Shown here: positions 2,714 to 5,240 of the stretch, piece by piece
How positions within the stretch are numbered: position 1 is the first letter of the stretch
Layout: each line of letters starts with the position of its first letter
Assembly (NCBI GenBank): GCA_900313355.1
Contig: OMQZ01000159.1
Coordinates: 1 to 5,240, forward strand
DNA length: 5,240 nucleotides
Direction: 5' to 3'
DNA from: an uncultured Rhodospirillaceae bacterium
GTDB lineage: Bacteria; Pseudomonadota; Alphaproteobacteria; RF32; CAG-239
Notes under the pieces: generated by a model
Told to the model about the DNA's origin: nothing
The model's input: the letters and a program-made list of their open reading frames with translations, nothing else
The model's database searches: none
Made by a program: the position numbers and the translations under genes

Positions 2714-5240
2714 ATGAAAAAAATTCTTGTTTTAGCACTGTTACTTTTTGTTCCAGCTGCAATTGCTTATGATGAAACATGTGGCGACGGATGTGCGGAT
2801 TTGCCCAGTTGTGCTGATTTGGGCTATAAACAGGGGCTGTATTGCCCCGAGGGGTATATCACGTGTCCGTTCGATCAAGATTATATATGGTGTAAGAGTT
2901 ATACCTGTAATATGGGCGGATTGTATGCGAGAGCAGATGTTGCTGCAAAACAAGAACAGGGTTATAAATGCCGCAAGGTAACTTATCACGGCTTAGAGTG
3001 TTATAACTGTGACGAAGTAGATGAGCGTTGTCGTTGGAATGATGCTAACAAAGGTGAAGGTGAGCTGTCAGGCAATCCTTGTCCGAACGGAAATTATCCG
3101 GAATGTATCCGAAAGTGTGCTGAAAAAGATAAAAGCGCTGAAATTCCGACGGGTGACGAAGTGGTTGCGGTTAAGGAAACATGTGTGAGCTGCGGTGTGC
3201 CTGAAGTTATTGTCGTTGATTATACGTGTGTGGCCGGATATGTGAAAACAGAAACAGGCTGTGAGCCTTCGGCGTGTGAAACACCGACAACGAATCCCGA
3301 AATTGCATTTGAAGCTTCAAACAGAATAGATTGTAGTGATAAAGCGCATCCTGAAGGCTGGATTTTTGAAACAGGCGGAGAAAGCGGAGGTTTGACATGC
3401 AGCCGATGCATTCCAAAGCCTTGTGCTCAACCGGGGTATGTTGCAGGGTTGACAGAATGTGCAAATATTACAGGATACAACTATTTAAGCGACGGGTTCA
3501 GCGGTGATGAAACCTGTGGTTATTGCGAGGCTTTGAGTTGTCGTGCACCGTATAGCACAGATTATCAAAGTGTAGACGACTGCCCGACGGCAAGTCTTGA
3601 GGGTTGGAGTGCAAGCAAAGCTTGGACTTATCAGCAAGACACAACAGGTGCGGGCGATTTGGCTTGCGGAAGGTGTGTGGCAAAGACATGTTCGGGCGGA
3701 TATAGCACAGATTATCAAAGCCTGAGTGATTGTCCGAACCAGACAGGATATACATTTTCTTATAGCACGACGGTTTATGCCGGCGATAAATATTGCGGAA
3801 AATGCGTGAGCTCGGGAAGTTGTACGGAGGGGCAGACAGGTTTGAACGCTGTCGGACAATGTCAAAATGAACCTTATAATTATCCGGGAATTAAAGGCGC
3901 TTCAATCGAAGAAACAGGATATTATAACGGCTCGGATGCATGTAAAAAATGTGTATGCAATCCGACGAGCGAATGCCAATGGACGAGCGGAACCGCTGGG
4001 GCTCATCCGATTGGGACAGGCGGAGCCGGTATCGGTTCGATTTGTTGTGACGGATCATATACGGGTTGTGAAAACAACACATGCGAAGGTGCTTTAGATG
4101 TAAATAATATTGAACACGCGACGGCGACAACGGTTTGCAGTGCTTGCGGACATACTTATACTAAGGTTACGAGCTGTGAAGAAGGCTATAAAAAGAATGA
4201 TGACGGAACAGCCTGTGTCGCAAAAGATTGTTCGGATTACGGATTGAACGAAGGAAACTGTTCAGAAGGCTTTAAAGCTGTTGAATCTACGGCTCATAGC
4301 GGTTGTTATACTTGCGAAGCTAAGGTTTGCGAAGATTATAATGCGGACTGGTTGTTGTATTCTTCCGGAACGAGCTGTAATGAGGGATATAAACTGACGC
4401 AACATCCGAACCAAAAATTGGGTAATGTGACGGGCATTTGTTATGATTGTTTGTCTTGTCAGACGTATTCGGGTTATATTACCGTTAATTCGGAAGCAGA
4501 TATTCCGAGTTATGTTACAAGCCATGTGGGCGGAAAATCATGTGACAAATATCAATATTGTGCGACAGGCTGTGCAGAAGGTTATGAAAAAGTCGGCTGT
4601 GAATGTGTTTCGGCATCTTGCGAAGGCTATGTCGCGATGACAGGATTGACGAAGATTAATGATACAACCTATACAGACGGTATTTTTACTTATGGCGTTT
4701 GTAATAAGGCCGGTGAGAAGCTGTTTAAGGTAAACGGTTGTACAGAAGAATATTCGTCCAGTTCTTGTAATACGGGACTCGGGGAAGTTGCGACGGGTGA
4801 TTCTAAAGACGGGTACGATTGCTATAAGTGCGAATGCACGGCTGCAACGCCGACACTTTGTCCGTATACGACAAATCAGAATGATACAACGAGACAATAC
4901 ATCGGTTCAGGAACGGCTTCCAACCAATGTTGTGATGGCAGTTATAAAAACTGCACAAAAGGGACTGCTTGCTCGGGCTTTACCTTGACATCAATACCCG
5001 AACATGCTCAAACAACAACATCTTGTACGGCTTGCGGTGAAACAAAATATAAAGTTACCAGTTGTGCGGAAGGTTATACGGGAACAGATTGCAGTGATTG
5101 TGATGAAGCAAATGGTTACTATGAATGCAACGGCGAATGTTTGATCAAACCCGAATGCGAAAACGGCGGAACGCCGGAATGCACAGCAAGCGGCTGGAAG
5201 TGCAGTTGTGCAGAAGGATATACGGGTGATGATTGCAGCC
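2714..5240 (+). CDS. large exported cysteine-rich modular protein, 3' end beyond the window
   Basis: The frame is open from the ATG at 2714 to the last base, 842 complete codons without a stop. The first 18 residues (MKKILVLALLLFVPAAIA) are a clear Sec signal peptide, with cleavage expected before Tyr19. By hand count the visible part holds about 86 cysteines, roughly 10%, regularly spaced. Residues 19-187 are an irregular Cys-rich segment. Eight copies of a four-Cys module, C-x(8-18)-C-x(14-27)-C-x2-C, start at Cys188, 237, 276, 326, 370, 506, 539 and 676. Two 12-Cys units occupy 410-501 and 703-793, and an EGF-like motif occupies 815-841. CxEGY/F recurs (for example at 488, 516, 555, 784 and 832). 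No membrane segment is seen after the signal peptide. I do not recognise a named family apart from the EGF-like piece. Such a protein must fold outside the cytoplasm with many disulfides; a surface or secreted adhesive or structural role is inference. It has its own promoter and ribosome binding site. Confidence 0.9.
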   Translation, partial: MKKILVLALLLFVPAAIAYDETCGDGCADLPSCADLGYKQGLYCPEGYITCPFDQDYIWCKSYTCNMGGLYARADVAAKQEQGYKCRKVTYHGLECYNCDEVDERCRWNDANKGEGELSGNPCPNGNYPECIRKCAEKDKSAEIPTGDEVVAVKETCVSCGVPEVIVVDYTCVAGYVKTETGCEPSACETPTTNPEIAFEASNRIDCSDKAHPEGWIFETGGESGGLTCSRCIPKPCAQPGYVAGLTECANITGYNYLSDGFSGDETCGYCEALSCRAPYSTDYQSVDDCPTASLEGWSASKAWTYQQDTTGAGDLACGRCVAKTCSGGYSTDYQSLSDCPNQTGYTFSYSTTVYAGDKYCGKCVSSGSCTEGQTGLNAVGQCQNEPYNYPGIKGASIEETGYYNGSDACKKCVCNPTSECQWTSGTAGAHPIGTGGAGIGSICCDGSYTGCENNTCEGALDVNNIEHATATTVCSACGHTYTKVTSCEEGYKKNDDGTACVAKDCSDYGLNEGNCSEGFKAVESTAHSGCYTCEAKVCEDYNADWLLYSSGTSCNEGYKLTQHPNQKLGNVTGICYDCLSCQTYSGYITVNSEADIPSYVTSHVGGKSCDKYQYCATGCAEGYEKVGCECVSASCEGYVAMTGLTKINDTTYTDGIFTYGVCNKAGEKLFKVNGCTEEYSSSSCNTGLGEVATGDSKDGYDCYKCECTAATPTLCPYTTNQNDTTRQYIGSGTASNQCCDGSYKNCTKGTACSGFTLTSIPEHAQTTTSCTACGETKYKVTSCAEGYTGTDCSDCDEANGYYECNGECLIKPECENGGTPECTASGWKCSCAEGYTGDDCS
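3551..3570 (+). repeat. 20-base exact direct repeat, copy 1
   Basis: This stretch, coding for YSTDYQS within the module starting at Cys276, is identical over 20 bases to 3701-3720. The flanking bases differ at once on both sides. The offset is 150 bases, exactly 50 codons, so the frame is kept. Confidence 0.85.
3701..3720 (+). repeat. 20-base exact direct repeat, copy 2
   Basis: This is the second copy of the repeat at 3551-3570, in the equivalent place in the module starting at Cys326. Both modules have C-x3-YSTDYQS-x3-C. Confidence 0.85.
3941..4216 (+). repeat. 12-cysteine unit, copy 1 (residues 410-501)
   Basis: Cysteines fall at 410, 413, 415, 421, 444, 445, 452, 457, 475, 478, 488 and 501. 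The unit contains the double cysteine in CCDGSYTGC, the motif CSACG, and KVTSCEEGY. It follows directly from, and shares its first two cysteines with, the four-Cys module beginning at Cys370. It matches the unit at 4820-5092 in cysteine number, order and most spacings. Confidence 0.85.
4820..5092 (+). repeat. 12-cysteine unit, copy 2 (residues 703-793)
   Basis: Cysteines fall at 703, 706, 708, 716, 739, 740, 747, 753, 771, 774, 784 and 793. It shares CCDGSY, C-x-ACG and YKVTSCAEGY with copy 1. The intervals x22, x6, x17, x2 and x9 are identical in both copies; only the loops after the third, eighth and last-but-one cysteines (x5/x7, x4/x5, x12/x8) differ. It too is preceded by a four-Cys module, at Cys676. 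Confidence 0.85.
5156..5236 (+). other. EGF-like motif in the cysteine-rich protein
   Basis: Residues 815-841 have cysteines at 815, 823, 830, 832 and 841. The segment CSCAEGYTGDDC satisfies the EGF-like signature C-x-C-x(2)-x-x(2)-G-x-x-C, and CENGGTPEC resembles the usual entry to an EGF domain. The preceding EGYTGTDCSDC at about 785-796 is a partial echo. The next domain lies beyond the window. Confidence 0.7.

Follow-up and report, generated by a model that had tools for sequence, protein, structure and literature searches.

How a bacterium would export, fold and use a protein with 86 cysteines in 842 residues is the question raised by one end of a short contig from an uncultured, probably gut-dwelling alphaproteobacterium. 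The window, i.e., the whole stretch of DNA analysed here, is the entire contig C139 (5,240 bases) of a 1.24-Mb genome (G000) that consists of 219 contigs and is 78% complete. From position 2714 onwards it encodes a cysteine-rich protein (10.2% Cys, with 14 CxxC and 2 CC motifs), hereafter the window protein. We find that this protein is real and intact, and that it belongs to a family that is undescribed within reach of the searches run. Modular cysteine-rich surface proteins are a known kind; the repeat found in this one and its setting, a family without recognisable DsbB, are not. The open reading frame (ORF) is laid out as follows.

2705–2708, + strand: Shine-Dalgarno-like GAGG, 5 bases upstream of the ATG (read from the sequence)
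2714–5239, + strand: cysteine-rich ORF that starts with ATG at 2714 and runs off the contig after 842 codons (86 Cys)
2714–2767, + strand: predicted Sec signal peptide, residues 1–18 (MKKILVLALLLFVPAAIA; read by eye)
2768–3271, + strand: N-terminal cysteine-rich region, residues 19–186 (alignment A2, family search, model)
3329–3424, + strand: repeat of about 45 residues, copy 1 (A1 profile, matched from position 14 on)
3422–3541, + strand: the same repeat, copy 2 (A1 profile)
3539–3691, + strand: the same repeat, copy 3 (A1 profile)
3689–3823, + strand: the same repeat, copy 4 (A1 profile)
3824–5137, + strand: middle cysteine-rich region, residues 371–808, without a named domain (family searches, alignment)
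5138–5236, + strand: EGF-like unit, residues 809–841 (Cys 809, 815, 823, 830, 832, 841; EGF patterns)

The original prediction, an earlier note on this DNA, described an exported, very cysteine-rich protein of at least 842 residues truncated by the edge, and the length of the frame, its cysteine count and its predicted export bear this out. The N-terminus has two lysines, a hydrophobic core and a signal-peptidase-I-like site between AIA and Y (judged by eye only). The truncation is technical, because the contig ends there and the orthologous frames stop only at 1,636–1,919 amino acids (aa): 1,699 aa with 170 Cys in UBA1254 (L003), 1,919 aa with 185 Cys in UBA9814 (L004), and 1,636 aa in G145 (L101). 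The window protein is likely the N-terminal half of a giant protein. Further orthologues are the proteins P0001–P0004 and a gene split over two contigs (L005/L006) of a reindeer metagenome-assembled genome (MAG). Used as a query, the window protein matched 37 of the 152 family genomes. Among the 11 genomes of its genus, matches were strong in eight (G000, G142, G143, G145, G146, G147, G150, and G151), weak in G148 and G149, and absent from G144.

Eukaryotic contamination, a wrong frame or a decaying gene might produce such a frame, and the EGF-like unit would suit an artefact of this sort, as would a G+C content that is mostly higher inside the gene (0.41–0.48) than upstream (0.26–0.42). Against this, the neighbouring genes are bacterial, the gene follows ptsN in five other loci (L003, L004, L087, L101, and L109), the orthologues are intact, and dN/dS between the window frame and L003 is 0.18. 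Signs of decay, which the original prediction suggested looking for, were not found up to the contig end. We consider an artefact very improbable. Profile searches did not find a characterised family matching over the full length either. With the window protein as query, Pfam, NCBIfam, and PDB sequences returned no family (Pfam: 0 families at E ≤ 1), PHROGs returned none (one match at E 0.097), and Pfam found 0 families in L003 and L101. Searching PDB chains with the repeat profile gave nothing at E ≤ 1. Among the papers listed by searches of the open-licence PubMed Central (PMC) literature, we noticed none on these cysteine-rich proteins. The original prediction that most of the protein belongs to no described family thus stands for nearly all of it in library searches, but it missed the EGF-like unit.

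The number of cysteines is fixed among close orthologues. Exactly 86 are present in the window protein and in the homologous part of six relatives (L003, P0004, P0003, L004, G145 [L012/L101], and P0001), which share 39–94% of their non-cysteine residues with it. All 86 cysteine columns are common to the window protein and L003, with 73.7% identity elsewhere, and where 3–4 columns seem to be lost, the cysteines are merely displaced by one or two residues. When the nearly identical P0001 is omitted, 81 of the 86 cysteines (94%) are invariant over six sequences, as are 6 of 8 tryptophans and 44 of 97 glycines; the invariance of non-cysteine residue types ranges from 6 to 75%. L005, which spans half of the region, keeps 46 of 46. 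The shared columns, this invariance, and the dN/dS value mark the cysteine-rich frame as more than a product of chance. Because their number is even and fixed in close orthologues, they would be paired as disulfides within the chain.

Part of the protein is built from a repeat. Residues 206–370 form four copies of a 40–51-residue unit (the profile matches part of the first copy) with the pattern C-x2-GY...C...G[WY]...G-x2-G...C-G-x-C-x2-K-x-C (alignment A1), each closed by a CxxC. The spacing of the cysteines, said to be regular in the original prediction, is so in this part and not elsewhere. Upstream of it, residues 19–186 include a block, CPFD..Y.WC, that shorter frames of the family also carry at their start (seen as matches to residues 1–70 in the family search). 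The A1 profile matched 46 of the 152 family genomes (33 of the 109 good ones; 7 of 16 genera), and a search of 153 genomes of the order returned the same 46. In a sample of the class, 3 of 385 genomes matched: the source genome, G001 from the same family, and, as the sole genome from outside it, G511 (a weak match, E 7.3e-5). The claim that such proteins are rare in Gram-negative bacteria agrees, as far as the repeat is concerned, with this single non-family genome and not with its frequency inside the family. All five cysteine columns are present in 118 of the 121 complete copies, and the other 3 lack column 36 only, a count in which the profile itself selects for cysteine. The repeat would make a new domain family by which probable surface proteins of this poorly known group could be recognised.

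Some genomes carry much more of this material. G031 has 47 repeat matches, and the source genome has a second giant (L008, C163:2715–11423), with 2,902 aa, 287 Cys, and nine weak-to-clear repeat matches. L008 has an N-terminal type of its own, adjoins an aspartyl-tRNA synthetase-like gene, and starts much like ORFs in L103 (G151) and L106 (G148), as judged by eye. The L103 ORF (42–4892; 1,617 aa, cysteine-rich) matches AMP-binding enzymes at residues 1405–1481 (E 5.6e-8), a stretch that may stem from gene fusion, from decay or from chimeric assembly. In G511, from another family of the class, the matching ORF (L110:5848–7413) contains 72 Cys (13.8%), is only weakly repeat-like, and is cut by the contig end, so that its 522 aa are a minimum.

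The predicted structure of the N-terminal part, which ends before residue 373, is a string of beta-hairpin beads (AlphaFold, pLDDT 88), with the four cysteines of each repeat placed as C, C, and CxxC on the predicted hairpin. Foldseek searches with this model against PDB and BFVD returned nothing at E ≤ 0.001, which is not evidence of a new fold. At the other end of the visible part, residues 809–841 have the six-cysteine spacing of EGF modules (gaps 5, 7, 6, 1, and 8; pattern C-x(3-14)-C-x(3-7)-C-x(4-16)-C-x-C-x(8-23)-C). Two EGF patterns match the window protein once each, compared with means of 0.12 and 0.03 after shuffling with fixed cysteines (0.01–0.31 across sequences). The patterns have 1–3 matches each near the same place in L003, L004, P0003, P0004, and L101, and 0 in L008, L073, and L075. 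No curated Pfam EGF cut-off was reached: none in the window protein, and in L004 EGF_laminin scored 18.2 bits against a cut-off of 21, with cEGF below its cut-off as well. The predicted small cysteine-rich beads in tandem, the EGF-like unit, and a weakly TNF-receptor-like geometry recall eukaryotic EGF/laminin-EGF and TNF-receptor cysteine-rich domains, and the protein could be a secreted or surface ligand that mimics such modules and binds host or protist cells. The repeat differs from them in having 4 Cys and a CGxC, and there is no Pfam EGF match in the window protein. We regard such mimicry as improbable.

The case for a surface location comes from relatives. We collected 30 cysteine-rich ORFs, some incomplete, from regions chosen around repeat matches and orthologues, and scanned 23 of them with Pfam. 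Five (L071, L072, L073, L078, and L079), from four genomes of genus g3 (G006, G011 twice, G012, and G014), carry a PF03797 autotransporter barrel above the cut-off (E 7e-11 to 8e-21). Counted in 200-residue bins, their cysteines lie in the N-terminal 1,200–2,600 residues (93–247 per passenger; L078 has one more beyond), followed by about 360–430 residues with 0–1 Cys and by a barrel with 0–1 Cys. Going by autotransporters in general, the cysteine-rich part of these passengers would be distal, outside the cell. Since the passengers carry the same repeat, the surface destination that was predicted for the window protein gains indirect support, and we infer that it may be at the surface as well. 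The barrel itself is absent from the intact orthologues L003, L101, and L004. Autotransporters do exist in the window's genus (8 of 11 genomes above the cut-off), and the two barrels of the source genome (contigs C137 and C216) are separate frames with 0 Cys whose starts are cut by contig ends, so that nothing ties them to the cysteine-rich gene of the window. The check for an anchor or secretion signal at the C-terminus, suggested with the original prediction, thus found barrels in g3 and none in the intact orthologues.

Other C-termini are diverse. In the L074 ORF (96–5036; G031:C13), an N-terminus of the window type and nine repeats are combined with an Lcl_C domain (PF07603, E 5e-24), which is possibly a tip domain. 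Lcl_C occurs in adhesins. The C-terminal domain of L003, predicted to be Ig-like, weakly resembles Gram-positive pilin and adhesin domains. When the C-terminal 250 residues of all collected ORFs were compared, no common secretion signal emerged: strong matches occur only among the five autotransporters and within two L003/L005 pairs, and other cysteine-rich ends are joined by a few weaker matches (E 1e-3 to 4e-10). Apart from the barrels, Lcl_C, and the partial AMP-binding match, Pfam matches in full-length relatives are minor: FAINT/DUF529 in L073 is above the cut-off (E 1e-6), yet no single stretch passes, BigA_beta is below it there, and further sub-cut-off matches occur in L074, L080, L081, L082, L084, and L110. 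L003 and L004 share 57% identity over the first 150 residues of L003 and about 17% over its last 199 (33 of 190 aligned positions), and nothing in G145 corresponds to the final 269 residues of L004. Alike at the N-terminus and diverged at the C-terminus, these proteins suggest a stalk that is conserved and an end that varies.

In Chlamydia, cysteine-rich outer-membrane proteins are said to be cross-linked with one another, and the giants described here might likewise form an envelope-strengthening network, either periplasmic or on the outside of the cell, instead of adhesive stalks. Several such proteins occur in some genomes of the family, as the second giant and G031 show, window-type members have no recognised anchor, and tilS-, cpoB-, and pal-like genes lie downstream in L003 and L101 (these names, like mltG and aspartyl-tRNA synthetase, were assigned by eye). 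Yet the even, fixed number of cysteines in close orthologues points to pairing within the chain, the g3 genomes carry the same repeat in autotransporter passengers, and the mltG-, pal-, and cpoB-like genes suggest an ordinary murein envelope. On balance, a network seems unlikely.

Oxidation of so many cysteines is puzzling. Gram-negative bacteria rely on the DsbA–DsbB (or VKOR) pair for oxidative folding, and here predicted-exported giants of about 10% Cys occur alongside no recognisable DsbB in 152 genomes. The heavy use of the periplasmic disulfide machinery expected from the sequence finds no support as worded: DsbA-like proteins were found in 12 of 12 family genomes (19 of the 20 relatives tested), but DsbB in 0 of 152 (0 of the 109 good ones; the source genome is 78% complete) and VKOR in 0 of 12. 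The search for DsbB did succeed in 6 of 14 control genomes, including E. coli and Caulobacter, and in 6 of the 20 relatives, all of which belong to the 7 outside the order (0 of the 13 inside it). VKOR was absent from all 13 genomes of the order, 12 of which are those of the family, and present in 1 of the 7 relatives outside it and in 3 of the 14 controls. G000, G148, and G150 have only a weaker-scoring DsbA-like type; active-site motifs are CGYC (G151) and CTHC (source genome and G151). The neighbours of both kinds of DsbA-like genes include no obvious DsbB-like partner (by eye), and the family may have a divergent or other one.

A lineage without DsbB might keep these cysteines reduced and use the CxxC motifs to bind metal, as zinc or iron-sulfur sites. 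The 14 CxxC, including the one that closes each repeat, and the failure to find DsbB (152 genomes) and VKOR (12 genomes) would agree with this. The cysteines of the repeat are, however, spread along the predicted hairpin, DsbA-like proteins with CGYC and CTHC motifs exist, and, as weak evidence, no metal-protein family or fold was matched; we find metal binding rather improbable. The lineage may be anaerobic, judging by the name of one MAG and the habitat of the group. RF32 and CAG-239, the names that would apply to this group, are among the rumen taxa named in passages of PMC11177756; NCBI lists UBA1254 no more closely than under unclassified Alphaproteobacteria. According to parts of PMC12453122, obligate anaerobes tend to keep cysteine out of exported proteins, and some organisms with DsbA-like proteins have no regenerating partner. 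Disulfide-bonded segments can impede autotransporter export in E. coli, with results that differ between constructs (PMC5802855). Tentatively, the lineage, many members of which would be coated with giants of about 10% Cys and one genus of which would move passengers with up to 247 Cys through autotransporter barrels, might make disulfides by a so far unknown route, the simplest being that chains stay reduced in the periplasm and close their disulfides outside. If true, extracellular closure would speak against the idea that autotransport and disulfides are incompatible. If the cystines are real, an unrecognised oxidation route would be needed; if not, these would be a new thiol- or metal-rich kind of surface protein.

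Our preferred explanation, which we hold with about even confidence as a whole, is that the protein is a giant Sec-exported chain of disulfide-braced beads that serves as a stiff, protease-resistant surface stalk with a variable, probably adhesive C-terminal tip. Sec would export the chain, cystines would close bead by bead, the closed beads would make a long stiff stalk, and the tip would attach. The outer membrane would be crossed by the protein's own barrel in g3 and by another route in the window's genus, unless the protein stays periplasmic. Oxidation without DsbB or VKOR would rely on DsbA-like proteins and an unknown electron acceptor, or would follow export. The beads and their disulfides are quite probable; for the adhesive stalk the chances seem evenly balanced. 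More divergent members deviate from the fixed cysteine number (69 where the window protein has 85 in G150, 67 vs 65 in G147, and 51 vs 69 in G146). The differences are all even and would fit paired loss or gain, in only three cases. Parity over the 30 ORFs (16 even, 14 odd) gives no help, and we attach no weight to it: the count includes incomplete frames, and its crude 25-residue signal-peptide cut dropped some mature cysteines (e.g., Cys 23).

The stalk that we favour can be compared with known systems. Type Va autotransporter adhesins (PF03797) share the giant size, the Sec signal, and the surface-stalk logic, and the g3 passengers are filled with the same repeat; the window protein differs in that its intact orthologues have no barrel match. 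Disulfides can impede passenger export, as passages of PMC5802855 report, yet the g3 passengers have the cysteine numbers given above. The chlamydial proteins and the Clostridioides difficile spore protein CdeC (named in PMC12453122) are likewise cysteine-rich bacterial envelope or coat proteins, but neither matches in sequence family and window-type proteins are much longer. Chlamydia also has a DsbA/DsbB pair (PMC6752827), whereas no DsbB was found in the window's family. Gram-positive CnaB-type pilins and MSCRAMM adhesins differ in that there is no sequence match and the window stalk would be of the disulfide type.

The three other genes of the window contain 3, 1, and 4 cysteines, and were identified by ORF calls and family searches.

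363–923, + strand: HPF/YfiA-type ribosome hibernation factor
847–1386, + strand: frame of a PtsN-like protein
1388–2569, − strand: branched-chain-amino-acid-type periplasmic binding protein

The first ATG of the PtsN-like frame overlaps the hpf gene, and relatives begin with MKISDILSQN, so that the real start is probably near 943. The hpf and ptsN genes precede the cysteine-rich gene in L003, L087, L101, and L109, and in L004 ptsN is directly upstream of it. The binding-protein gene stands alone between ptsN and the cysteine-rich gene; among the relatives viewed it is there in L003 and L109 only, and not in L004, L087, or L101. A T2SSE-type ATPase is encoded near the cysteine-rich gene in L003, and contig C105 of the source genome encodes a T2SSF protein and a sub-cut-off PilS-like pilin. 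Immediately downstream of the L004 orthologue lies another cysteine-rich protein (L004:13356–14786; 476 aa, 45 Cys). L003:19431–20534 and L005:8591–10483 represent a second cysteine-rich family, with 44% identity over about the last 250 residues, that lies near a T2SSE-type ATPase and pal-, cpoB-, and tilS-like genes.
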